Positions 979 through 14,473 of a stretch of 50,428 nt of DNA are shown here, piece after piece. The number at the start of each line of letters is the position of its first letter. Position 1 is the first letter of the stretch. Made by a program: the position numbers and the translations under genes. Under the pieces are notes generated by a model. The model ran no database searches, was not told the DNA's origin, and saw only the letters and a program-made list of their open reading frames with translations. The DNA is taken from assembly GCA_024280035.1 (NCBI GenBank), contig JAJRQV010000098.1:1-50428 (forward strand), in the 5' to 3' direction. The DNA is from Campylobacterales bacterium (GTDB lineage: Bacteria > Campylobacterota > Campylobacteria > Campylobacterales > Sulfurimonadaceae).

Positions 979-2211
979 ATGACAAAAACAATTAAATTAG
1001 CTCTAGTAGCTGCAATGGCAATGGGTGCAACTTCTGCATTCGCAACAAATGGTGATAACCTAATCGGTCTTGGTGCTAAATCACGCGCAATGGGTGGAAC
1101 GGGTGTTGCTCACTTTAATGGTGCTGAGTCTGCTACAGCGAATCCTGCTCTAATTACTAAATCTAAGGGCACTTCTTTTGCTTTCGGTGGTACTTATTTC
1201 CGTCCAGATGTTGAAGTTGAAACAGGTGGTACTACATACCAAAGTGATGCTAAGCATAATGTTATTCCATATGTAGCATTAACAGAAAGCCTTGATAATG
1301 GTTTAACTATTGGTGCATCTATGTTTGGTTCAGCAGGTATGGGTGTTGATTACCGTTCAACAGGTGCAACAGATATGGCAGCAACTGGTCCAAATATGTA
1401 TTCAATGAGAACAAACCTTTTATTACTTAAGTTCTCTGTTCCGATTGCTTACGGGCAAGACAACTGGTCAGTAGGTATTGCTCCAGTAATGATGTATGGT
1501 TCATTAGACATGTCTTTAGATATGCCAGACTTTGATCCTGCTACAGGAGCTCCTCTTGGTACGCAGCATGATGTAGGAAATGGTTCTTCATCAAGTTTTG
1601 GTGTAGGTCTTGAACTTGGTGCTGCATACGAGCTTCCAGATATGGGTCTTACTTTTGGTGCTGTTTACCACTCTGAAATTGCAATGGAATATAAGGATCA
1701 GATTACTACGTTAGGTCGTGAATTTGGTTATGTAGGTGCAGCAGAATTAAGTAATAAACTTACTCAACCAGCTGAATATGCTTTAGGTGTTGATTGGACT
1801 CAAGGCGATATTTCTCTTACTTTTGACTGGAGGAATATTCGTTGGGGATCTGCTCGTGGTTATTCTGACTTCGGTTGGGAAAATCAAAGTGTTTACGCTC
1901 TAGGTGGTGAGTACAGAATGGATGACTTAACTTTAAGAGCTGGTTTTAACTACGGTAAAGACCCAATTAAAGACAGTGCAGATACTCGTCTGAACCTACT
2001 AAATCAAGGTATGTTCCCCGCAATTACACAAAGACATTATACTATTGGTGCGGGTTACCAGTTTACTAAAAATGTTGGTCTTGATGCAGCATTTACTTAT
2101 GGTGTAAGCGGAGATCGTACAGTTAATACGACTCCATTTACTGCAGGTGCAACAACTACAGCTACAAATGATCAAATTGGTCTTTCTGCAGCTATTAACT
2201 ACACTTTCTAA
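979..2211 (+). CDS. OmpP1/FadL/TodX-family outer-membrane transport protein
   Basis: This 410-residue protein starts with a clear Sec signal peptide (MTKTIKLALVAAMAMGATSAFA). The mature N-terminus begins NGDNLIGLGAKSRAMGGTGVA, the hatch-type start seen in FadL/OmpP1 proteins, and is followed by alternating beta-strand sequence ending in the terminal aromatic F (INYTF). FadL-type barrels let hydrophobic compounds such as long-chain fatty acids or aromatics cross the outer membrane; the substrate here cannot be told. TAGGAGAA before the ATG sets the start. The gene is monocistronic, with its own -10 element and a hairpin after the stop. Confidence 0.88.
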   Translation: MTKTIKLALVAAMAMGATSAFATNGDNLIGLGAKSRAMGGTGVAHFNGAESATANPALITKSKGTSFAFGGTYFRPDVEVETGGTTYQSDAKHNVIPYVALTESLDNGLTIGASMFGSAGMGVDYRSTGATDMAATGPNMYSMRTNLLLLKFSVPIAYGQDNWSVGIAPVMMYGSLDMSLDMPDFDPATGAPLGTQHDVGNGSSSSFGVGLELGAAYELPDMGLTFGAVYHSEIAMEYKDQITTLGREFGYVGAAELSNKLTQPAEYALGVDWTQGDISLTFDWRNIRWGSARGYSDFGWENQSVYALGGEYRMDDLTLRAGFNYGKDPIKDSADTRLNLLNQGMFPAITQRHYTIGAGYQFTKNVGLDAAFTYGVSGDRTVNTTPFTAGATTTATNDQIGLSAAINYTF

Positions 2212-2232
2212 AGTTTAGTTAAACCTCTTCTC

Positions 2233-2254
2233 TTTACTACCTTCGGGTGGTAAA
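2233..2254 (+). terminator. hairpin terminator after the FadL-type gene
   Basis: TTTACTACC and GGTGGTAAA pair, with one G-U wobble, around a stable TTCG tetraloop. A weak T-rich run (CTTTTAT) follows about eight bases later. Confidence 0.6.
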
Positions 2255-2312
2255 GAACTCTTTTATAGAACTTCATTTTAACTTTTCACTCTAATTTAAA
2301 TCTATTCAACTG

Positions 2313-2340
2313 GCTAAATCTGTTGATAATGCTTACTTAT
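2313..2340. repeat. degenerate arm of the dispersed palindromic repeat
   Basis: CTAAATCTGTTGATAATGCT resembles the conserved arm TTAAATCTGTGGATAACTTGCT with several changes. No second arm is recognisable. It may be a decayed copy or chance similarity. Confidence 0.3.
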
Positions 2341-2491
2341 TCCAAAATCTCATTATTATTCGTATGTTTCATATATAAGCAGATGTTTTACAATAATTTA
2401 CTATCAATCAATTTTTTAAATACGTTTATATCGGCTATGTTACACTGTAGGGATTCATATTAAGCTCAGGGTGGCTTATAAAAGGAAAAAT

Positions 2492-3460
2492 ATGTTTAGT
2501 AAAATTATTAATTGTTTAGTCATAACATTATTAACTACGAGCACATTGTTGGCACAAGATGGTATCTATTTTAATGCGGCGACAGGTGATAAAGAAGGTG
2601 CTTATAATACAATGGTGGACGAAAAGATTGAGAATATTGGTTTTATTCTTTCTGATCCTTATGAAAGAATTAATGAGGCTTACGCTCAAAAGTATTCTAA
2701 TGAAAAAGGCTATAAAGAGACTTTAGATAATTTAGGATTTTTTTCAATAAGTAATGATAAGGCATTACGTCCACTCTTATTAAAAGAGCCTCGATTGGGT
2801 GCTTTTTCTCCTTTTAATTTACTTATTTATAAATATAAAAGTGAAGATATTACACGGGTGGGTTATCTTAACCCTAGGGTAATGCTTGATATTACGGGAG
2901 TAAATAATAAGCGTGTACGAACAGACTTTATTAAGATGTTTGAACCTTTACAAAAAGTGTTAGACAGTGAGATTAGAGGAAAGCATGAGGTTGTCACCTT
3001 TGATAAACTTCCTTCTACTAAATTAATGGAGTTTGAACTAGAGTTTGAGCGTTCTGATAATATATTAGACTTTATTGAAGATTTTCAAGAGAAGTTTGAA
3101 GAAGCCTTTGATGATAATAAATACATTATCGTTGATTTTAAAAACTATTCTGAAGTGTATGCAGATATGCAGGTTGATTTTTCTAAGTATGATGCTTATT
3201 TTGTGTACGCAATATGTCATTTTCACTTCTCTTACACAGTTTTTAATGCTGGAAATGCTCAAGCGGGTATTTTTGCCCCATGTTCAATGTATATGTATAT
3301 AGAAAAAGATAAAAATATTATGCATATTGGTATGGCATATCTAGAAAACTGGATTAGTGTCGCGGGAATTACAGATCTTGAACAAGTTAAATCAATTCGT
3401 ACCTTAGATAAACAAATTATTGATATAATGACAGGTCTAGGGGCAAAATTACAATTATGA
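2492..3460 (+). CDS. exported protein with two DUF302-like repeats
   Basis: Start chosen at ATG 2492, preceded by AAAGGA; a GTG at 2471 in the same frame would only add residues ahead of a good signal peptide (MFSKIINCLVITLLTTSTLLAQ). The mature 300 residues seem to contain two copies of a DUF302-like fold. The first centres on LGAFSPFNLLIYKYK and the second on AGIFAPCSMYMYIEKDKN followed by HIGMAYLENWI. The same two-repeat plan and FAPC motif occur in the protein at 6473-7435. DUF302 function is not established; these are periplasmic proteins common in sulfur-oxidising Campylobacterota. The lipoprotein gene follows after 27 bp and probably shares its transcript. Confidence 0.7.
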   Translation: MFSKIINCLVITLLTTSTLLAQDGIYFNAATGDKEGAYNTMVDEKIENIGFILSDPYERINEAYAQKYSNEKGYKETLDNLGFFSISNDKALRPLLLKEPRLGAFSPFNLLIYKYKSEDITRVGYLNPRVMLDITGVNNKRVRTDFIKMFEPLQKVLDSEIRGKHEVVTFDKLPSTKLMEFELEFERSDNILDFIEDFQEKFEEAFDDNKYIIVDFKNYSEVYADMQVDFSKYDAYFVYAICHFHFSYTVFNAGNAQAGIFAPCSMYMYIEKDKNIMHIGMAYLENWISVAGITDLEQVKSIRTLDKQIIDIMTGLGAKLQL

Positions 3461-3487
3461 GAAGAAAATTAAGATACGGAGGCGTAA

Positions 3488-4345
3488 ATGCCAGTTAGTA
3501 AAAAAATTCTAAGTTATATAATGATTGCAATGGCAATTTTATTTAGTGCCTGTAGTACAAAGTCTACGGGTACAGGAGAAGAGAATGCTCCAAAGGTTGT
3601 TTCAGCCTATTTAATAGGTAGTATGAGCTCTGCAGAAGAGGTAAGTGCTAAATTAACTGCCGCTGGTTTTGAGGTTCTTGGAACTTACCAAATTAATAAA
3701 AAGCATAAGCTTGAAACTGTTGTTTTTACAAATAACGTCTTAAGAGCAATGGCAAATAGACCAAACCGCGGTTTTGCTGCATTGGGTCGTGTTTTAATAG
3801 ATGGTAAAAACAGTCAGATTTCTATTGCTAATCCTGTCTATTTTGGAAAAGCTTTTATGCAACAAGATATAAATTATTCTGAAATGTTAAAGTTGAAAAA
3901 GAAATTAATGTCTACCTTTACGAATCTAAGAGAATCTGAAGATAGATGGAGTTACAGAGGTCTGTCTAATTATCACTTTATGGTTTCAATGCCATATTAC
4001 CAAGATACAACAATTATTGGGGAAGGTCCTACATAGCAACTTCTTAAAAAAGCACAGGAGTATCAGAAAGGAAAGGCTTTACTCTTTACACTAAAACTTG
4101 CTGAGGGGAAATACCTTCTTGGATATAAATTATCTCGTCGTACGACTAAATTTCCTGAAAAGATAGGTATAGATAAAGCAGGTTTACTACCGTATACTAT
4201 TTTGATTAATAATAATGAAGCTCGTATAATGGCACCTAAATTCTATCTTGCGGTGTCTTATCCTCAGTTAAGTATGGGTCAATTTATGAGAATTGCCACT
4301 GTTCCTGGTGCTATAGAGAGAGATTTAAAGAAACCTTTTGAATAA
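3488..4345 (+). pseudogene. lipoprotein gene interrupted by an in-frame TAG
   Basis: The frame starts MPVSKKILSYIMIAMAILFSACS, with a lipobox (LFSAC) that would place the protein on a membrane as a lipoprotein. TAG at 4034-4036 is codon 183. The same frame continues without further stops (QLLKKAQEYQKGKALLFTLK...) to TAA at 4343-4345, giving 285 codons. The two halves look like one protein: each has a segment resembling a DUF302-like repeat, as in the gene just upstream. I do not recognise a function. A GGAGG-like site before the ATG supports the start. Either the gene is broken by one base change or the TAG is a sequence error. Confidence 0.65.
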
Positions 4346-5926: not shown

Positions 5927-5948
5927 AATTTACACTATTTTTACATTC
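5927..5948 (+). promoter_or_regulatory. tandem 11-bp direct repeat, probable response-regulator site 1
   Basis: AATTTACACTA (5927-5937) is followed at once by TTTTTACATTC (5938-5948). A -10-like GATAAA lies at 5953-5958, so the repeats would cover the -35 region as an OmpR-family activator does. The same arrangement recurs before soxX (10477-10498). The site precedes the operon that encodes an OmpR-type regulator, suggesting autoregulation. Confidence 0.5.
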
Positions 5949-5987
5949 CAATGATAAACTCCGTAAATATCACTAAGGAGATAAGAG

Positions 5988-6452
5988 ATGAAAACAATTA
6001 TCTTATTATTTATGTTTATGCAGATGTTACAAGCGGATGAGAGTGTTGTCAAAGTTGTATTTGACCTTACAACAAGTGATATTGAAGTCTTTGAAAGAAA
6101 TGTACTTAAGGGAATTGCTTTTCATAAGACACATTATGAAGGAAGTCTAAAAGAGTTGAGTGTTGCGGTTGTTATTCATGGTGGAGCATATAAGTTTTTT
6201 ATAAAAACTCCGGATAACAAACTTATAAAACAAGATGCAATATTAATGAAAACTCATAAGAATATAGCTAAGAGGATAGCCTTGGTGGCTGACTTGTATG
6301 AGGCTGAATTTTTAATGTGTAAGGCGGGGCTTACACGACGGGGGTTAAAAGAGAAAGATATTTACAGTTTTGTGAAAATGGTGCCTACATCAACTGTAGG
6401 TTTAATAGACAAACAGGGTGAGGGGTATGCATATATCCCCATCGGAAAATAA
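5988..6452 (+). CDS. periplasmic DsrE/DsrF-like protein
   Basis: The 154-residue protein has a signal peptide (MKTIILLFMFMQMLQA) and the DsrE-like fold: VVKVVFDLTTSDIEVFER, then VAVVIHGGAYKFF, EAEFLMCKAGLTRRGL and VPTSTVGLIDKQGEGYAYIPI. The single Cys in the CKAGL turn sits where DsrE-family proteins carry their sulfur-binding Cys. Cytoplasmic DsrE relatives pass persulfide sulfur; an exported one beside sox genes suggests handling of sulfane sulfur outside the membrane, but that is inference. CTAAGGAG gives a strong start. It leads the operon DsrE-DUF302-Cache-regulator-kinase and a second exported DsrE-like gene lies beyond the sox genes. Confidence 0.75.
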   Translation: MKTIILLFMFMQMLQADESVVKVVFDLTTSDIEVFERNVLKGIAFHKTHYEGSLKELSVAVVIHGGAYKFFIKTPDNKLIKQDAILMKTHKNIAKRIALVADLYEAEFLMCKAGLTRRGLKEKDIYSFVKMVPTSTVGLIDKQGEGYAYIPIGK

Positions 6453-6472
6453 AATCATATAAAGGAGAGAAG

Positions 6473-7435
6473 ATGAGAGGTTTGAAAAAAGTAGTTTATG
6501 TAGCATGTATAATAGTAGGTTTATTTGGATTTACACAGAGTCTGAGTGCCCAAAATATAAAAGGTGATTTACATCTATTTTCAATTGAAAACAGTGATAA
6601 AAACGAGATTCCTGCACGTATAGTCAATCAATTACAAAAAGATGGTTTTTCTATTTCGGCAGATACGGATATGACAAAACCTTTTAAGATACAGTTTAAA
6701 AAAAGTGATTTTGATATTTTTCATTTGATGACTATTTATCATGATGAGTTGAGTGCAAAACTGGTTAAAAAAATACCCAATGCAGGAGTTTTTTCTCCAA
6801 TGGGAGTGGGTGTTTATCAAAGAATTGGAGATAAAGTACTTTATGTTTCTATTTTAACATCTAAGGCACAATCAAAAATCTTAGGTCTTAAAGAAGTTGA
6901 GCCTATCTTAGTTGATATTGAGACAAAATTAATGGCGTCTATTAAGAGAGCCCTTCCTGATGCAAAGATAGACTTAGAGTCTGATAATCCTCTTCCAACA
7001 GAAGGAAAACTTCTCTCTTTACATGAGATGGAGATTGAAGATGATGAGTGGGAAGATATAAAAGAAGAGTTAATAATGACACTCGAAGCAGAGTTTAAAC
7101 CCGTAGGTTTTGTTGTTGCTGCACATGCTGATTATAACAGTGTCTTAACTCAAGATGGAAGTATTCAGAGCCCTTTTGATTTTTTTGAGACCTACTCAAT
7201 TTGTAAACTAAAAGTTATCCATGCGGTAGCAAAAACGCGTCCTCAAGCTTCAGCCTTTGCTCCTTGTACCATGATACTGTACAAAGAAAAAGATAAAAAC
7301 AAGGTTGTTATGGCTTTTCCTAGTGTATATAACTGGATGAGCAGTGCACGTGTGGTAGATGAGAATGCCAAAAAAGAGTTGATGAAAGCACAAACAGATT
7401 TTGAAAATATTCTGATAGAAGCAATAGGAGAGTAA
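6473..7435 (+). CDS. exported protein with two DUF302-like repeats
   Basis: The 320-residue protein has a signal peptide (MRGLKKVVYVACIIVGLFGF to SLSA). It repeats the plan of the protein at 2492-3460: a first repeat around AGVFSPMGVGVYQRIGDKVLYV and a second around ASAFAPCTMILYKEKDKN, then VVMAFPSVYNWM. A Cys sits in FAPC in both paralogues. Function of the family is unknown. It follows the DsrE-like gene after 20 bp with the site AAGGAGAG, and is co-transcribed with it; the Cache sensor follows after 59 bp. Confidence 0.72.
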   Translation: MRGLKKVVYVACIIVGLFGFTQSLSAQNIKGDLHLFSIENSDKNEIPARIVNQLQKDGFSISADTDMTKPFKIQFKKSDFDIFHLMTIYHDELSAKLVKKIPNAGVFSPMGVGVYQRIGDKVLYVSILTSKAQSKILGLKEVEPILVDIETKLMASIKRALPDAKIDLESDNPLPTEGKLLSLHEMEIEDDEWEDIKEELIMTLEAEFKPVGFVVAAHADYNSVLTQDGSIQSPFDFFETYSICKLKVIHAVAKTRPQASAFAPCTMILYKEKDKNKVVMAFPSVYNWMSSARVVDENAKKELMKAQTDFENILIEAIGE

Positions 7436-7494
7436 TTTCCTTGCTGATATCATAAATATTTATACACCAAGACAAAATATGAATAAAAGATGTT

Positions 7495-8616
7495 ATGATT
7501 AATAAAAAGAATATGATTAATAAAAAAATTGTTTTTATCCTCTTTATTATTCCTGTTGTATTTCTACTGATTCTCTATTTTCAATTAAAAGAACAAGTGA
7601 GTGATATCTCTGTTAAAAAAATAAGTGATCAGTTCTCAGTACTACTTCGTGCAGAAATAGCCAAAGAAAAAGAGAACTCTCTTCGATATGCTCTTCTTTT
7701 ATCTAGAAACGACTCCTTAATAGCATCAATGGAAGATGATGATGAAGAGAGAGGGTATCGAATTCTTTCAGAATTAATGTTTTCTATCGAACAATATACC
7801 CATGCCATTATCCGTACACAAATTATTACTGATGATTATCTTATTTTTGCACGTAGTTGGGATAATACTTTTGCAGGCATGCCTATTGATGAATACAGAC
7901 CAGACCTGCAATACTTTCAAAAGAATAAAAAACCTCGTTCAGCTATTGAAGTAGGACGGCGTTTAGGTATTAAAGCAACGGTTCCCATCTACAAAGATGA
8001 TAAGATGCTTGGTTTTGTTGAGGTACTGCAGTTTTTTGAAAATACAACAAAATACTTTCGACAGATGGGTGTAGAGCTTTATATTTTAATGGATGAACGT
8101 TTTTATGGTATCTCTATTTTTATGCAAGATAACCCCTTTGTAGGCAAAGACTATATTATTGCCAACCGTCATTACAGCTCTATATATCTTAATGACTTGG
8201 AAGCGTTAGATATGAACAAGTTGCGTAAGAATAAAATTTCAAAACTTAATAAAAAGTATTTTTTTTATGAACCTATGATTAATGGTATTGGAGAACAAAT
8301 AGGTGCTTTTGTTATGGTTATGCCCAAAGAAAGACTTAATTACTTTGCTTCAAAAGATGACAAACTCTCATTTATGATTAATTTTACAAGAAGTGAACTG
8401 TATGAGATTACTAAACATAAATATAGTGATGCTCTGGGATATAAAAGCCGTTATGATAAAGAGTTGTTATATTTAAAAGATGTAGTGGCTCCTGAAGATA
8501 AAGAGCTATTTATGGATGAGGCACGAGATAGGCTTAATGAATACTCAAAAGAGGAACTTATAGGCATGATTCTTAATTACAATATAGCACGCCATATTGA
8601 TGGAGAAATTAGATGA
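7495..8616 (+). CDS. membrane-anchored Cache-type periplasmic sensor protein
   Basis: The 373-residue protein has one N-terminal membrane segment (IVFILFIIPVVFLLILYF) and a large periplasmic part that looks like a Cache-type ligand-binding domain: a long helix (LRAEIAKEKENSLRYALLLS), then FARSWDNTFAGMPIDEYRPDL, GIKATVPIYKDDKMLGFVEVLQFF and IGAFVMVMPKERL. It has no kinase, HAMP or receiver domain. It overlaps the regulator gene by ATGA, so sensing seems split off from the kinase encoded two genes on. The start is ambiguous: a near-repeat of 18 nt gives two ATGs (7495 and 7513) encoding MINKK twice. The ligand may be a reduced sulfur compound, by context only. Confidence 0.68.
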   Translation: MINKKNMINKKIVFILFIIPVVFLLILYFQLKEQVSDISVKKISDQFSVLLRAEIAKEKENSLRYALLLSRNDSLIASMEDDDEERGYRILSELMFSIEQYTHAIIRTQIITDDYLIFARSWDNTFAGMPIDEYRPDLQYFQKNKKPRSAIEVGRRLGIKATVPIYKDDKMLGFVEVLQFFENTTKYFRQMGVELYILMDERFYGISIFMQDNPFVGKDYIIANRHYSSIYLNDLEALDMNKLRKNKISKLNKKYFFYEPMINGIGEQIGAFVMVMPKERLNYFASKDDKLSFMINFTRSELYEITKHKYSDALGYKSRYDKELLYLKDVVAPEDKELFMDEARDRLNEYSKEELIGMILNYNIARHIDGEIR

Positions 8617-9284
8617 AAATACTGCTTTTAGAAGATGAATATACCCTCCGTATTAGTATAGAAGAATTTTTAAATGATATTGGTTATGAGGTTGATGGTT
8701 TTACTTCCAGCGAAGAGGCTTATGATGCTGTATTTGAGACGGCATATGATCTTTTACTCTTAGATGTCAGTGTACCGGGGCGTAATGGTTTTGAACTCTT
8801 AAGTGATCTTCGTAAAGAGGGTATTGGAATATCTGCAATATTTCAAACCTCCTTAACTGATATGGGTGATTTTAAAGAGGGATATAATGCAGGATGCTGT
8901 GATTATATTCGAAAACCATTTGATCTTATGGAGCTACAGTTACGAATAGAACAGGTTATAAAGAGTTGTTACCATGATAATGAATCTATTGTTACCCTAG
9001 CGAAAGGTTTAGAATATGATACTACGCACTTTAGTCTGATTTATAATAAAAAAGAAGTCGATCTTAGTAAAACTGAAGGTGATTTATTAGAAGTGTTATT
9101 AAAATATAAAAACCAAGTCGTTTCAACAGAGATATTTTGCGATGAGATATGGGGAGAGTATGTTAATCCAGCTAATATCCGTGTTCAGGTAAACAATCTG
9201 CGTAAAAAAGTGCCTATAGAGTTTATCGAAAACCGACGGGGTATTGGATATATCATACCTAATAAAGGGGAAAAGAGTGAATGA
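8613..9284 (+). CDS. OmpR-family response regulator
   Basis: The 223-residue protein has a receiver domain (1-120) with the acidic pair ED (residues 7-8), the phospho-acceptor Asp in LLLLDVSVPG (about residue 51) and the Lys in YIRKPFD. A winged-helix domain follows: LSKTEGDLLEVLLKYKNQVVS, ANIRVQVNNLRKKV and NRRGIGYII. It overlaps the Cache gene by 4 bp and the kinase gene by 8 bp. OmpR-type regulators bind direct repeats with about one helical turn spacing, and 11-bp repeats of that kind precede this operon and soxX, so it is the best candidate sox regulator here. Confidence 0.88.
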   Translation: MKILLLEDEYTLRISIEEFLNDIGYEVDGFTSSEEAYDAVFETAYDLLLLDVSVPGRNGFELLSDLRKEGIGISAIFQTSLTDMGDFKEGYNAGCCDYIRKPFDLMELQLRIEQVIKSCYHDNESIVTLAKGLEYDTTHFSLIYNKKEVDLSKTEGDLLEVLLKYKNQVVSTEIFCDEIWGEYVNPANIRVQVNNLRKKVPIEFIENRRGIGYIIPNKGEKSE

Positions 9285-10443
9285 GACCAGTTATGCCATT
9301 AAAAATGCCTTATTGTATACCCTTTTTGTAGCTATTGTCTTATTAGCCCCCTTGTATGTTTATATGGTGTATATGAAAAGTGTTTATCAGGTGCAAAATG
9401 AACTGGCATTAAAACAGCATGCGAGAATAATAATCCATGAGATGGAAGCCTTTGGGCAAAGGGATGAACCCACCTTTAATTTTCCGCGTTTTCAGCTTTT
9501 TCAAGCCGGTCTGTATACGAATCACTTTAACCCACTATTTACCCTTATTGAAGAGCCTATGGAAGACTTCTCTCCAGGTTATCATACCCAAGGTTCTTAT
9601 GTTTATTATATTATGCCTTTGCCACAAAATCGTTATTTTAGTGCCAGTTATTTAATTGTTGGAAATAAACTTTCATACAGTAGCATTTATCAGAATGTAG
9701 TTATGATTCTTGTTTCTATTATTATTTTTGTTTTTTTACTCTCCCTCTTTTTTTTAGAGCGGTTTTCTCGGCCTTTTAAGAGGGTTAATCAAAAACTTGA
9801 TAGGTTTATAAAAGACTCTATGCATGAAATTAACACGCCACTGAGTATTATTAATGTTAATATTGATCTTTTTAATAGAAAGAATCCTGAAAGCAAATAT
9901 CTTAAACGCATAAAAGCAGCGACCAAAACGCTGTCAAATATTTATAATGATATGGATTACCTTATTAAAAAACAGAGTCGAGAGTTTGAAGTACAGAAGA
10001 TAGTACTGGATAAGTATCTACAAGAGCGTATTGAATATTTTTATGAAGTTGCGGGAATGAAGAAGATATCTATAAGCTTGAATATTGATTGTACGATAAA
10101 TATTATGTTTAACAGTACAAAGCTACAGCGTATTATTGATAATAATCTATCTAATGCTATTAAATATTCTCATGAGAACTCAAAAATAGAGGTAAGTTTG
10201 GAATCTTTTGAAAACGGATGCAAGCTTAGTTTTAAAGATGAAGGCGTGGGAATAAAAAACCCCCAGCGAATTTTTGAGAGATATTACCGCGAAAAAAGTG
10301 AAAAAGGTGGTTTTGGTATTGGTCTTAATATTGTTAAACAGATTATTGATGAAGCTAATATTACCCTCAAAATTAGCTCTCAAGTAGGCAAGGGAAGCAC
10401 CTTTTCCTACTTTATTCCTGCAAGACTTCTTGCTATAAACTAA
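9277..10443 (+). CDS. membrane sensor histidine kinase
   Basis: Start chosen at GTG 9277, which has AAAGGGGAAAAG upstream and overlaps the regulator gene by 8 bp; an upstream TTG at 9244 is possible. The product is 388 residues. A first membrane helix (about 10-33), a periplasmic region of about 100 residues and a second helix (about 140-160) precede the kinase core. Motifs are the H-box FIKDSMHEINTPLSI (His about 183), N-box NNLSNAIKYSHENS, G1 DEGVGI, F-box ERYYRE and G2 GGFGIGLNI. It is complete and should phosphorylate the regulator just upstream. It probably works with the separate Cache protein. Confidence 0.87.
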   Translation: MNETSYAIKNALLYTLFVAIVLLAPLYVYMVYMKSVYQVQNELALKQHARIIIHEMEAFGQRDEPTFNFPRFQLFQAGLYTNHFNPLFTLIEEPMEDFSPGYHTQGSYVYYIMPLPQNRYFSASYLIVGNKLSYSSIYQNVVMILVSIIIFVFLLSLFFLERFSRPFKRVNQKLDRFIKDSMHEINTPLSIINVNIDLFNRKNPESKYLKRIKAATKTLSNIYNDMDYLIKKQSREFEVQKIVLDKYLQERIEYFYEVAGMKKISISLNIDCTINIMFNSTKLQRIIDNNLSNAIKYSHENSKIEVSLESFENGCKLSFKDEGVGIKNPQRIFERYYREKSEKGGFGIGLNIVKQIIDEANITLKISSQVGKGSTFSYFIPARLLAIN

Positions 10444-10476
10444 ACCCTTAATACAAAAACAATCACTCTTTCGTAA

Positions 10477-10498
10477 TTTTTACACTATTTTTACACTA
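10477..10498 (+). promoter_or_regulatory. tandem 11-bp direct repeat before soxX, probable response-regulator site 2
   Basis: TTTTTACACTA occurs twice with no gap (10477-10487 and 10488-10498). A weak -10 (TACTAT, 10505-10510) follows, so the repeats overlap the -35 region. The match to the repeats at 5927-5948 is very close. This gives a direct link between the two-component operon and the sox genes. Confidence 0.55.
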
Positions 10499-10536
10499 GC
10501 TTGTTACTATTACTCAAATAACTTGAAGGAGTGTCA

Positions 10537-11064
10537 ATGATAAAGATAGTTACATTAGTTGCGATGGCAGGAATTGCTTCTTTTGCTGTTGATTTGAAAA
10601 GTGTGATAGAAACACCTGAAGCCAAGCAGATTATTCAAAAGGATTTACTTGGTCCGGCAAAAACATTTACGATGCCAGCAGGATGTATTACAACTGATGC
10701 AGAGGCAATAGCACGTGGAAAGTTTATTTTTCATAATCTAAATGGAAAAAAAGCAAAGGGTCCTTTTCCTAAAGGCTTAGCCAAAAAGAATGCAAAGGGT
10801 AAGGCAAAACAGTACGGAAACTGTGTTGCTTGTCACAATATAGAAGGTGCAAAAGGTGGGGGAAATATTGGTCCAGATCTTAGCAATTATAAGAAGCATT
10901 TTATTGATACAAAGGTGCGTAATAGTGCATGGGTTTATCAAAAAATAGCAGATGCACGTATTGATAATGCAAACACACATATGACAATTAATCTGACAAC
11001 AGGTCTGTTTAGTAAAAAAGAAGTCTGTGAGTTAACATCATATATTGTATCTAAGAAAAAGTAG
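10537..11064 (+). CDS. soxX: SoxX, c-type cytochrome of the Sox thiosulfate-oxidising system
   Basis: Start chosen at ATG 10537, five bases after GAAGGAG; a GTG at 10531 would overlap that site. The 175-residue protein has a signal peptide (MIKIVTLVAMAGIASFA) and one haem motif, CVACH, followed by a GPDLSNY segment typical of SoxX. SoxX pairs with SoxA to form the periplasmic enzyme that links thiosulfate oxidatively to the SoxY cysteine. It is the first gene of soxXYZAB and is preceded by the tandem repeat that probably binds the upstream regulator. SoxX ends with a genuine TAG. Confidence 0.88.
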   Translation: MIKIVTLVAMAGIASFAVDLKSVIETPEAKQIIQKDLLGPAKTFTMPAGCITTDAEAIARGKFIFHNLNGKKAKGPFPKGLAKKNAKGKAKQYGNCVACHNIEGAKGGGNIGPDLSNYKKHFIDTKVRNSAWVYQKIADARIDNANTHMTINLTTGLFSKKEVCELTSYIVSKKK

Positions 11065-11074
11065 AGGAGAAAAA

Positions 11075-11542
11075 ATGCAAAGAAGAACATTTTTAAAAGG
11101 ATTTGGGGCAGCAGTCGCTGTGTCAGCGGTAGTACCATCAGTAGTATTGGCAGACGATAAAAAGCCAACAAGCCCAAATGCAATGAGTTATACAACAGCA
11201 GTTGCCGCTATTACAGGAGGCAAATCAGTGACTGTTTCAAGTAAGGTAGCGCTTAAGGCACCTGAAATTGCTGAAAATGGAGCCGTTGTTCCAGTGAAGG
11301 TAACAGTTGAGAGTCCTATGACAGATAAAGATTATGTTAAGGCTATCCATATTCTTGCTAAAAAGAATTTTAATGCCCGGTGTGCAAATGTGTTTTTAAC
11401 ACCTGCAAATGGAAAAGCAGTTTTTGGTACACGTATTAAACTGGGTGGAACTCAAGATGTTGTTGCCTTAGTTGAACTCAGTGATGGTAGTTTTATAAGT
11501 GCTTCACAAAACGTTAAGGTAACTATCGGCGGATGCGGTTGA
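11075..11542 (+). CDS. soxY: SoxY, sulfur-carrier protein of the Sox system
   Basis: Start is ATG 11075, with AGAGGAG upstream. The 155-residue protein has a twin-arginine signal (MQRRTFLKGFG...VVLA) and ends exactly in GGCG, the flexible arm whose Cys carries the sulfur intermediates of thiosulfate oxidation. Between them is the usual Ig-like domain (VPVKVTVESPMTDKDYVKAI). It forms a dimer with SoxZ, and Tat export fits a complex folded before crossing the membrane. The gene lies 10 bp after soxX. Confidence 0.93.
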   Translation: MQRRTFLKGFGAAVAVSAVVPSVVLADDKKPTSPNAMSYTTAVAAITGGKSVTVSSKVALKAPEIAENGAVVPVKVTVESPMTDKDYVKAIHILAKKNFNARCANVFLTPANGKAVFGTRIKLGGTQDVVALVELSDGSFISASQNVKVTIGGCG

Positions 11543-11584
11543 TCGCAGAGTTAAAAAATAAAAAATAGATAAGAGAGGCTAGAC

Positions 11585-11920
11585 ATGGGAAAAAGAAAAT
11601 CATTGATTAAAATCAAACCAAAAAAATATAAAACAGGCGATATCGTAAAAGTAGATTTTATGGTAATGCATCCAATGGAAACAGGGATGCGTAAAGATAA
11701 AAAAACGGGAAAATATACACCAGCTGAGTATATTACAGAAGTGAAGTTCTTCTTCAATGATGTATTATTAACAAAAATGATTATTTGGGAAGCACTTTCA
11801 ACTAATCCACTTTTCACAATTAACTTTAAAGTGACAGGTCCTGGAAAATTAAAAGTAGTTTTCAAAGATAATAAGGGCGAAGTTACAGAAAAAAGCAAAA
11901 AAATTAAACCCAAAGGATAA
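11585..11920 (+). CDS. soxZ: SoxZ, partner of the SoxY sulfur carrier
   Basis: The 111-residue protein has no signal peptide, as usual, because it is exported together with SoxY. It shows the SoxZ-type Ig-like fold: VKVDFMVMHPMETGMRKDKKTGK, the segment PAEYITEVKFFFND and a C-terminal LKVVFKDNKGE. SoxYZ presents the sulfur substrate to SoxAX and SoxB. It starts 42 bp after soxY with AGAGAGG upstream, and soxA starts three bases after its stop. Confidence 0.92.
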   Translation: MGKRKSLIKIKPKKYKTGDIVKVDFMVMHPMETGMRKDKKTGKYTPAEYITEVKFFFNDVLLTKMIIWEALSTNPLFTINFKVTGPGKLKVVFKDNKGEVTEKSKKIKPKG

Positions 11921-11923
11921 GAG

Positions 11924-12688
11924 ATGAATAAAATTATAATTTCATTAATGGCATCTGCTGTCTTAGTCTTTGGTGGTGAACAATTTGCAATGAGTGATGC
12001 TGATCGTGCTATGTATGCCGAGATGCTAGAGGCAAATCCTGCTGATATGTTTGTTGAAGAGGGAAATGAGTATCTTTAAGAGTTTGGTGGTGGAGATGAA
12101 GGTCTTGCTAAATTTCTAAACCAGAGTGAAGAGACGCTTCCCGGATATATCGCAGGCTTTCCTCGATATATTAAAAAATTTGACCGTGTTGTGGGGTTAG
12201 ATCAAGTTCTTCAGGGGCTTATGGCTGAAAATGGGCATAAACCTTTTAAGCTAAAAAGCAAAGATATGTTTGCTATGTCAGCGTATGCTAAATCTCTTGC
12301 GAATGATGAGAAGATTAATATTGATGTTACTGCGAATAAACAGATGAAAAAAGCATATGCTTTAGGTAAAGAGGTGTATGAGACAAAACGTGGCGGACGT
12401 GGGCTTTCATGTTTAAGCTGTCATTCTAAAGATGTGATTGGTGGTATCTTACGTACTCAGCCACTTCCTGATTTAGGTGCGCCAACTGTTAAAGCAGCTG
12501 CGACATGGCCAGCTTATCGTATGACAAAGTCTTCTTTACGTACGCTTCAAAGACGTTTTCAAGGCTGTATGAAAAATGCACTTTTAGCAGTACTTCCTAT
12601 TGGATCTGAAGAGATGGTTGCACTTGAGGTGTATATAACAGAGAAAGCAAAAGGCAATGAGATCGCCATTCCTGGTCTCAAGCGTTAA
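11924..12688 (+). pseudogene. soxA: soxA, interrupted by an in-frame TAA
   Basis: The frame begins MNKIIISLMASAVLVFGG, a signal peptide, four bases after soxZ. Codon 52 is TAA (12077-12079), in the phrase NEYL*EFGGGDEG. The frame then runs on intact for 203 codons and keeps all SoxA hallmarks: the haem motif CLSCH and the active-site Cys in RRFQGCMKN, followed by a helix ending LEVYI. Without the stop it would be a normal 254-residue single-haem SoxA. The lost residue is probably Glu or Lys (GAA or AAA). Internal restart codons exist downstream but would give a protein without export signal. Confidence 0.85.
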
Positions 12689-12700
12689 GGGGTAGATAGT

Positions 12701-14473
12701 ATGGATATTTCAAGAAGAGATTTTATGCAGATTGCAACAGCTCTTGGGCTAATCACCGTTGCTGGTGGTTGTGCTACAGCTGTTCCAGGTAGAAGTCTGG
12801 ATGCAATAAGCCTTAAAGATTTATATGATTTTAATACAAAAGGAAAGTTGACCCTGCTTCATATGTGTGATTTACATGCCCATATTAAGCCTTTGTACTG
12901 GAGAGAGCCCTCAACACTAATTTCGGCTCCAAACCTTGTGGGTACACCAGGTTTTTTATGTGGTGAATCTTTTGCGAAATATTATGGCTTAGAGCCAAGT
13001 TCGCTTGATGCATATTTTGATACCTATATGGACTTTGATGCCTTAGCAAACAAGTTTGGAAAAATGGGTGGGATTTCGCATATGAAGACACTTATTAATG
13101 AGATTAAGCGTCAGCGTGGTGCCCAAAATGTGTTATTCTTAGACTCGGGTGACACATGGCAGGGTACAGGTGTCGCACTAAAGACTCGTGGTGAAGCGAT
13201 TGTTAAGGCGCAAAACTATCTGGGTGTAGATGTAATGGTAGGACACTGGGAGTTTACCTATGGTAAAGAGCGTGTTCAAGAGCTTATTACTAAGTTAGAT
13301 GCGAAATTTATTTCACAAAATATTGTGGGTAATGATCCTTTTGCAGATGAATTTGAGGAGTTAATCTTTGAACCCTATACTATTGAGGAAAGAGCAGGAG
13401 CGAAGATAGGTATTATCGGTCAATCTTTTCCTTTTACATCAACAGCAAATCCAAAAGAGTTTACAGAAGGTTGGAGTTTTGGGCTTCGTTTAGATACGCT
13501 TCAAGAGTATGTAGATGAACTTCGTAATAAACATAAGGTTGATTGTGTTGTTGTTTTGTCTCATGATGGATTTAGTGTTGATCAAGAGGTGGCACGTAAG
13601 GTTAATGGAATTGACTTTATTTTAAGTGGGCATACGCATGATCCTTCTCCACAACCTATTGTGATTAATGAGACGGTCATTGTTATTGCAGGTAGTCATG
13701 GTAAGTATATTGGACGTTTAGATCTTGATATACAAAATGGAAAAGTGAATGATTATGAGTACAAACTCATTCCCATCGCTTCAAATATAATACCAGCAGA
13801 TCCTGAAGGTGAAAAGTTAGTTGCACAGCTGTATGCTCCATTTGATACAGAATTAAATGAGGTTCTTGGTAAAACAAAGGGTCTTTTATATAAACGTGAT
13901 ACCTTTCATTAGACCTTTGATCAGCTGATTAATGATGCTATTATGGATGAGATGAAATGTGATATCTCTTTTACTCCAGGTTACCGTTGGGGAACAACAG
14001 TTCTTGCAGGTGGTAATATCTTAATGGATAATGTTTATGAGATGTGTGGAATTACATATCCAAATGTGTATACTTTTGAGCTAAAGGGAGAGCGTATTGC
14101 AAGTCTTCTTGAAGATATAGCGGATAATGTATTTAATGCTAATCCTCTTTATCAACAAGGTGGAGATATGAGTCGTCTTGGTGGTATGACCTATGATATT
14201 ACGGTTGCAGCTGCAACAGGTAAGCGTATCACTAATATAAAAGTTGGTGGAAAAGCACTTGATCCTAACCGTATTTATAGTGTTTCATCATGGGGTGGAA
14301 ATCTTCAAAATGCTGGAGACAATCTGCAAGAAGATAAAATCCGTGCTGTTTATGACATTACGCGTGATTATATTAAGCGTAAGGGAGTGGTAGACGTTAG
14401 TAATGAGAGTAATGTGACTCTGCTTGATTATGACTGTGGATGTCCACAAAAAGGTAGAACAACCTGCTCTTAA
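12701..14473 (+). pseudogene. soxB: soxB, interrupted by an in-frame TAG
   Basis: The frame begins MDISRRDFMQIATALGLI, a twin-arginine signal, with AAGGGGTAG upstream. The metallophosphoesterase domain shows its metal motifs: HMCDLHAH, LDSGDTWQGTG, LSHDG and SGHTHDPSP. SoxB is the di-manganese hydrolase that frees sulfate from SoxY-bound thiosulfonate. TAG at 13910-13912 is codon 404, between YKRDTFH and TFDQLINDAIMDE; the C-terminal 5'-nucleotidase-like domain (FTPGYRWGTTVLAGG...) continues intact to TAA at 14471. The full length would be 590 residues. Truncation at 403 would remove the substrate-binding domain. Confidence 0.88.

Follow-up and report, generated by a model that had tools for sequence, protein, structure and literature searches.

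How are the soxXYZAB genes of Campylobacterota controlled? The two sox systems, soxXYZAB and soxCDYZ, differ in expression in nature (PMC9122950, PMC10470523, PMC10045233). In the Black Sea, soxCDYZ was expressed about 100-fold above soxXYZAB (PMC9122950), and in cold-seep Sulfurimonas soxABX was almost silent (PMC10470523). A literature search with partial coverage found no paper on a regulator or operator of sox in this phylum. Here we analysed a stretch of 50,428 nucleotides (contig JAJRQV010000098.1, hereafter the window) from a Campylobacterales bacterium of the Sulfurimonadaceae, in which one tandem 11-bp repeat precedes a two-component operon and another precedes soxXYZAB. We propose that these repeats are probably operators of the OmpR/PhoB-family regulator encoded at 8613-9284, which would act in place of a -35 element to activate a SoxXYZAB regulon.

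Two tandem repeats share one promoter register

The first putative operator consists of AATTTACACTA followed by TTTTTACATTC at 5927-5948 on the forward strand, 5' of the operon dsrE-DUF302-dCache-response regulator-histidine kinase. The second, two successive copies of TTTTTACACTA at 10477-10498 on the same strand, lies 5' of soxXYZAB. The initial annotation had placed both sites correctly and had called the repeats identical, which is true of a 17-bp core common to both, TTTACACTATTTTTACA, but not of the full 22-mers, which differ at four positions. It had also described a -10-like element about 5-7 bp beyond each repeat. We found -10 hexamers in a conserved register on the forward strand, TAAACT at 5955-5960 and TACTAT at 10505-10510, both as exact matches to TTTACAYWNWYTTTACA-N9-TANNNT, and the distance from the end of the repeat to the hexamer is exactly 6 bp at both sites.

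Genome-wide analyses were done by pattern searches. The search that the annotation had suggested returned perfect matches to TTTACACTANNTTTACA only at these two sites in the 2.51-Mb genome (n = 2). When a motif model was built without this genus, 10477-10498 ranked first (30.6 bits) and 5927-5948 second (22.1 bits) among all positions of the 50-kb window; two weaker matches to the other-genera model were detected on the minus strand, at 590 and 43970. Specificity across the genome was obtained only with the full tandem and its -10 hexamer. With three mismatches, the annotated motif gave 302 matches genome-wide versus 332 for a reversed control, showing no enrichment, and matches with two mismatches in this genome were close to background (22 versus 14 control matches).

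The arrangement is conserved upstream of soxX

Next, we compared the 150 bp preceding each of 33 soxX genes from 13 genera, the window's copy included. The comparison with sox promoters of relatives that had been proposed gave a uniform answer: the tandem precedes soxX in all 33 loci, while the flanking DNA has diverged. The pattern TTTTACAYWAWTTTTACAY-N7-GTTACAAT is conspicuous within the 150 bp in 32 of the 33, and the remaining locus has it about 380 bp upstream. Exact TTTACA-N5-TTTACA was present in 27 of the 33 upstream regions, versus 0.011 expected from dinucleotide shuffles (maximum 1 in 2,000 shuffles). The soxX sites scored 16.0-30.6 bits with a model rebuilt leaving each genus out in turn. 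A counterpart of the first operator is also kept 5' of dsrE in G003, G004 and other genera. These data showed that the tandem repeats exceed chance, as related genomes independently confirmed.

The conserved arrangement is TTTACA-N5-TTTACA-N9-TAnnnT, a direct repeat at 11-bp pitch. Upstream of soxX the two TTTACA copies are spaced by 11 bp in 27 cases, with any other single spacing found at most three times, and in all 27 a step of 9 bp separates the second copy from TAnnnT. The C of the half-site is kept at 91-97%. Direct repeats one helical turn apart, maintained across 13 genera, have the form of an OmpR/PhoB operator. These promoters had no -35 hexamer at the usual position, 16-18 bp before the -10. 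The two TTTACA copies lie 20 bp and 9 bp from that element; neither can be a normal -35 hexamer, and we discarded this reading of the repeat because of the spacing. At PhoB-type promoters, a regulator dimer replaces the -35 contact, and the arrangement found here appears to be the one expected of such a replacement.

The usual gene order in the family is dCache-response regulator-histidine kinase-soxXYZAB, and regulator orthologs are widespread in it; one family member, Sulfurimonas indica, was the sole relative in a scan of named genomes. Some loci depart from the usual spacing. Between operator and soxX, the locus with the distant repeat (L063 of G038, 10930-11310) carries about 320 extra bases with a GC-rich inverted repeat, and its operator is intact. 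About 2.6 kb are inserted between the regulator and kinase genes or between the kinase gene and soxX in L048 (G028, 9175-11776), L058 (G010, 9881-12615) and L070 (G046, 10147-12710); despite these insertions the site remains with soxX.

The motif accompanies the regulator

We then examined 200 genomes of the family for the exact tandem with its -10 hexamer. Of the 97 genomes with the regulator, 77 had it, versus 5 of the 103 without (Fisher 7e-30), and in the 139 genomes not used for pattern design the counts were 48 of 61 versus 3 of 78 (1.5e-21). Because the genomes are related, these p-values exaggerate the independence of the data; the pattern nevertheless recurs in many genera. A reversed-pattern control gave about 10 matches over all 200 genomes. 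Of 107 exact matches in total, 62 lie 1.16-1.30 kb and two more 3.8 kb downstream of the response regulator gene and on its strand, which is the position of the soxX start in the loci read.

Four of the five matches in regulator-negative genomes are probably the result of contig cuts. In G029, G189 and G198 the regulator gene, the kinase gene or both are truncated at a contig edge, and in G035 the contig starts 74 bp before the site. The fifth, in G238, looks like background.

Genomes without soxB were especially informative. Three of them (G085, G098 and G050) contain the triad of dCache protein, response regulator and kinase, and there the motif lies 5' of a gene for a multiheme cytochrome with paired CXXCH, near the triad in two of them (G085 and G098) and at another place in G050. 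Therefore, it is the regulator that the motif follows, and not sox. Conservation of the recognition-helix segment (D/E)PA(N/T)(I/V)RVQ(I/L)NNLRKK extends to these triad genomes lacking soxB. Conversely, none of 30 soxC loci of the family, taken from genomes with and without the triad, had a site (best score 8.7 bits). These loci are a better negative control than distant sox clusters (L124-L131, about 40% SoxB identity), in which no site was found near the sox genes; their first promoter may lie elsewhere, which makes them weak controls.

The initial annotation had taken the repeats for OmpR-family operators bound by the regulator encoded between them. Both proposals gain support from these comparisons, since the motif is kept at soxX across genera and absent from the soxCDYZ cluster, is tied to the presence of the regulator and follows it where soxB is missing. 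Nor was the motif equally common before unrelated genes, the outcome that had been named as counting against this reading. Together, the comparisons suggest that the repeat pair is very probably an on-switch used by the triad regulator.

Genes behind the motif

The 107 exact matches precede soxX (71), DsrE (11), DUF302 (4), YeeE/PF04143 transporter (4), dCache_3 chemoreceptor (4), FadL-like (2) and other outer-membrane porin (2) genes, genes for a 144-residue protein with no Pfam match (2), a multiheme cytochrome gene (1) and a rhodanese gene (1), with five unclear; in this tally the gene at unread matches in the soxX position was inferred from distance. Targets beyond sox are mostly sulfur genes, in line with the sulfur regulon that the annotation had predicted.

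The chemoreceptors behind the motif share their sensor family, dCache_3, with the first gene of the triad. They are methyl-accepting proteins in L143, L145, L197 and L199, and possibly mediate chemotaxis toward the same cue; a scan of the L143 protein identified a CZB domain, which binds zinc. In L196 (G140) and L198 (G124), a protein of 144-145 residues is encoded downstream of the motif; the one scanned had no Pfam match, and it is a possible unknown member of the regulon. FadL-type genes are kept only as candidate targets, because their sites are 375-450 bp upstream. The window itself encodes a FadL-like protein followed by two DUF302-type proteins at 979-4036, with only the weak inverted match at 590 (18.6 bits). 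In L204, a tandem site lies 453 bp upstream of a homologous cassette.

In G133, as in the window's genus, the triad is headed by dsrE with its own site. Such a site would give autoregulation.

Genes of the window

The operon behind the first site is encoded on the forward strand and begins with a DsrE-family protein of 154 amino acids (5988-6452; PF02635, 3.4e-11) and a DUF302 protein of 320 amino acids (6473-7435; PF03625, 8.2e-6). A dCache_3 sensor protein of 373 amino acids follows (7495-8616; PF14827, 2.9e-10), predicted to be periplasmic with a single N-terminal anchor and without a kinase domain. Its structure model (mean predicted local distance difference test score, pLDDT, 84.7) shows two Cache lobes and a long helix at the N-terminus, and DctB is among the dCache domains that it matches; a sequence search of solved structures found no relative.

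The proposed binder of both operators, a response regulator of 223 amino acids (8613-9284), contains PF00072 and PF00486 and the receiver motif LLLLDVSVP, and the adjacent histidine kinase (9277-10443, with a GTG start proposed at 9277 and read from 9280) contains PF00512 and PF02518. All four domains score above their cut-offs, as in an OmpR/PhoB two-component system. With the PhoB equivalog TIGR02154 the regulator scored 97.5 bits, below the cut-off of 296.2; its assignment as binder draws on helix conservation and motif co-occurrence. L081, L082 and L083 have a second dCache-regulator-kinase triad (47-50% regulator identity) away from sox, alongside the sox-linked one.

The sox genes, also on the forward strand, are soxX (10537-11064; TIGR04485, 78.7 bits, cut-off 61), soxY (11075-11542) and soxZ (11585-11920), the latter two identified from gene order and the conserved cluster of the family, followed by interrupted soxA (11924-12688) and soxB (12701-14473). 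In soxA the stop is TAA at 12077-12079, where many relatives have Glu, and in soxB it is TAG at 13910-13912, where every relative read has Ser. The soxA and soxB copies read in the same genus are open. The stops represent either recent decay or an assembly error: either the control region is intact and the enzymes are broken, or the assembly is wrong at these positions.

Proposed mechanism and alternatives

We suggest that two molecules of phosphorylated regulator, arranged head to tail as a dimer, would bind one face of the helix and take the place of the -35 element. This would be class II activation of the kind known from pho boxes, and it would turn on soxXYZAB. In the window's genus it may also activate its own dsrE-DUF302-dCache-regulator-kinase operon, which would create positive feedback. 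The cue would be external and would be sensed by the periplasmic dCache protein together with the kinase; a reduced form of sulfur, thiosulfate or another, is the most probable candidate. The switch would extend, in relatives, to DsrE, DUF302, YeeE-type thiosulfate transporters and the dCache_3 chemoreceptor, and not to soxCDYZ, which could explain the separate expression of the two sox systems; a regulator private to soxXYZAB would account for that difference. On balance we favour the view that Sulfurimonas and its relatives use the triad as a regulator dedicated to the thiosulfate branch (SoxXYZAB), with one operator code that would coordinate oxidation and the handling of sulfur in the periplasm with thiosulfate uptake and chemotaxis and leave soxCDYZ out.

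Several points, besides the relatedness of the genomes, weigh against this proposal. Clear sites in this genome number only two, and no convincing one was found near its own YeeE gene (C61:2747-3787). Twenty of the 97 regulator-positive genomes have no exact match; among them, all six loci read (G003, G004, G019, G021, G046 and G057) carry a variant site at soxX. Finally, it is the targets alone that point to a sulfur cue.

The nature of the cue is also where the best-surviving alternative departs. The regulator may bind and activate as proposed but respond to redox state, an electron acceptor or another small molecule sensed via dCache. Ligands of dCache domains are very diverse, and triad-positive genomes without soxB place the motif at multiheme cytochromes; we nevertheless regard a non-sulfur signal as unlikely, given that the recurrent targets are mostly sulfur genes (sox, DsrE, the PF04143 transporter and rhodanese). 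Rather doubtful is a regulator that binds as a repressor and is relieved by sulfur. Repression is how characterised sox regulators such as SoxR of Hyphomicrobium act (PMC10451225), but the tandem here occupies the -35 position of promoters with no -35 hexamer, which suits an activator supplying the missing contact.

Orphan regulators of the HsrA type are widespread in the phylum. Binding by one of them seems very improbable, even though HP1043 of Helicobacter binds TTTAAG-N5-TTTAAG, which has a similar half-site and an identical 11-bp layout (PMC5253667). Such a regulator should act independently of the triad, whereas genomes lacking the triad almost never have the motif. HP1043 controls several genes of basic processes, whereas exact matches to the motif here number about one in each triad-positive genome and lie mostly at soxX, and its half-site is TTTACA, unlike TTTAAG. 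We rejected this candidate chiefly on the distribution of the motif. That the repeat is a mere core promoter element, a duplicated -35-like hexamer with no dedicated regulator, is scarcely credible, because TTTACA is similar to TTGACA but neither copy is at -35 spacing and the motif, with 107 exact matches in 200 genomes, is triad-dependent and not general to promoters.

A candidate regulator, together with a precisely defined operator and a target list, makes the control of the two sox systems testable. The operator can also serve as a sequence tag for predicting, in genomes from vents and redoxclines, which genes are regulated together with soxXYZAB.

Comparison with known systems

A close likeness is to PhoB and its pho box, in which two direct repeats at 11-bp pitch replace the -35 at a fixed distance from the -10 and the regulator has a paired kinase. 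The system described here has the same 11-bp direct-repeat pair instead of a -35, a fixed step to the -10, and an OmpR-type regulator with a paired kinase. Its half-site is TTTACA rather than CTGTCAT, its targets are sox genes, and an extra dCache protein is encoded in the same operon. HP1043/HsrA shares the 11-bp centre distance, the phylum and the OmpR family (PMC5253667), but the last two half-site positions differ, and it is an orphan serving several basic processes, whereas here there are a kinase and soxXYZAB.

Other systems resemble the present one in part. RsrS-RsrR of Acidithiobacillus caldus is likewise a two-component system of the OmpR type and a positive regulator of thiosulfate oxidation (PMC5093147); its target, however, is tetH of the tetrathionate pathway, not sox, its 19-bp site is AACACCTGTTACACCTGTT, and it belongs to another phylum. 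PceP/PceS of Sulfurospirillum, from the same phylum, is an OmpR-family two-component system with direct-repeat sites near the -35 (PMC7755780), but its site is CTATW-N17-CTATW and its role is the control of tetrachloroethene respiration. SoxR (ArsR type) and TTHA1953 of Thermus (CsoR type) are also tied to the control of sulfur-oxidation (sox) genes (PMC10451225, PMC10318464) and, unlike the system here, are not two-component systems. SoxR has been reported to be strictly confined to Proteobacteria (PMC10451225) and is therefore not expected here; the regulator adjoining sox is of the OmpR type, not ArsR or CsoR, although the whole genome was not searched for genes of those two types. By these comparisons, the system would be of the OmpR-type operator and two-component kind, and its novelty would lie in its target and its phylum.

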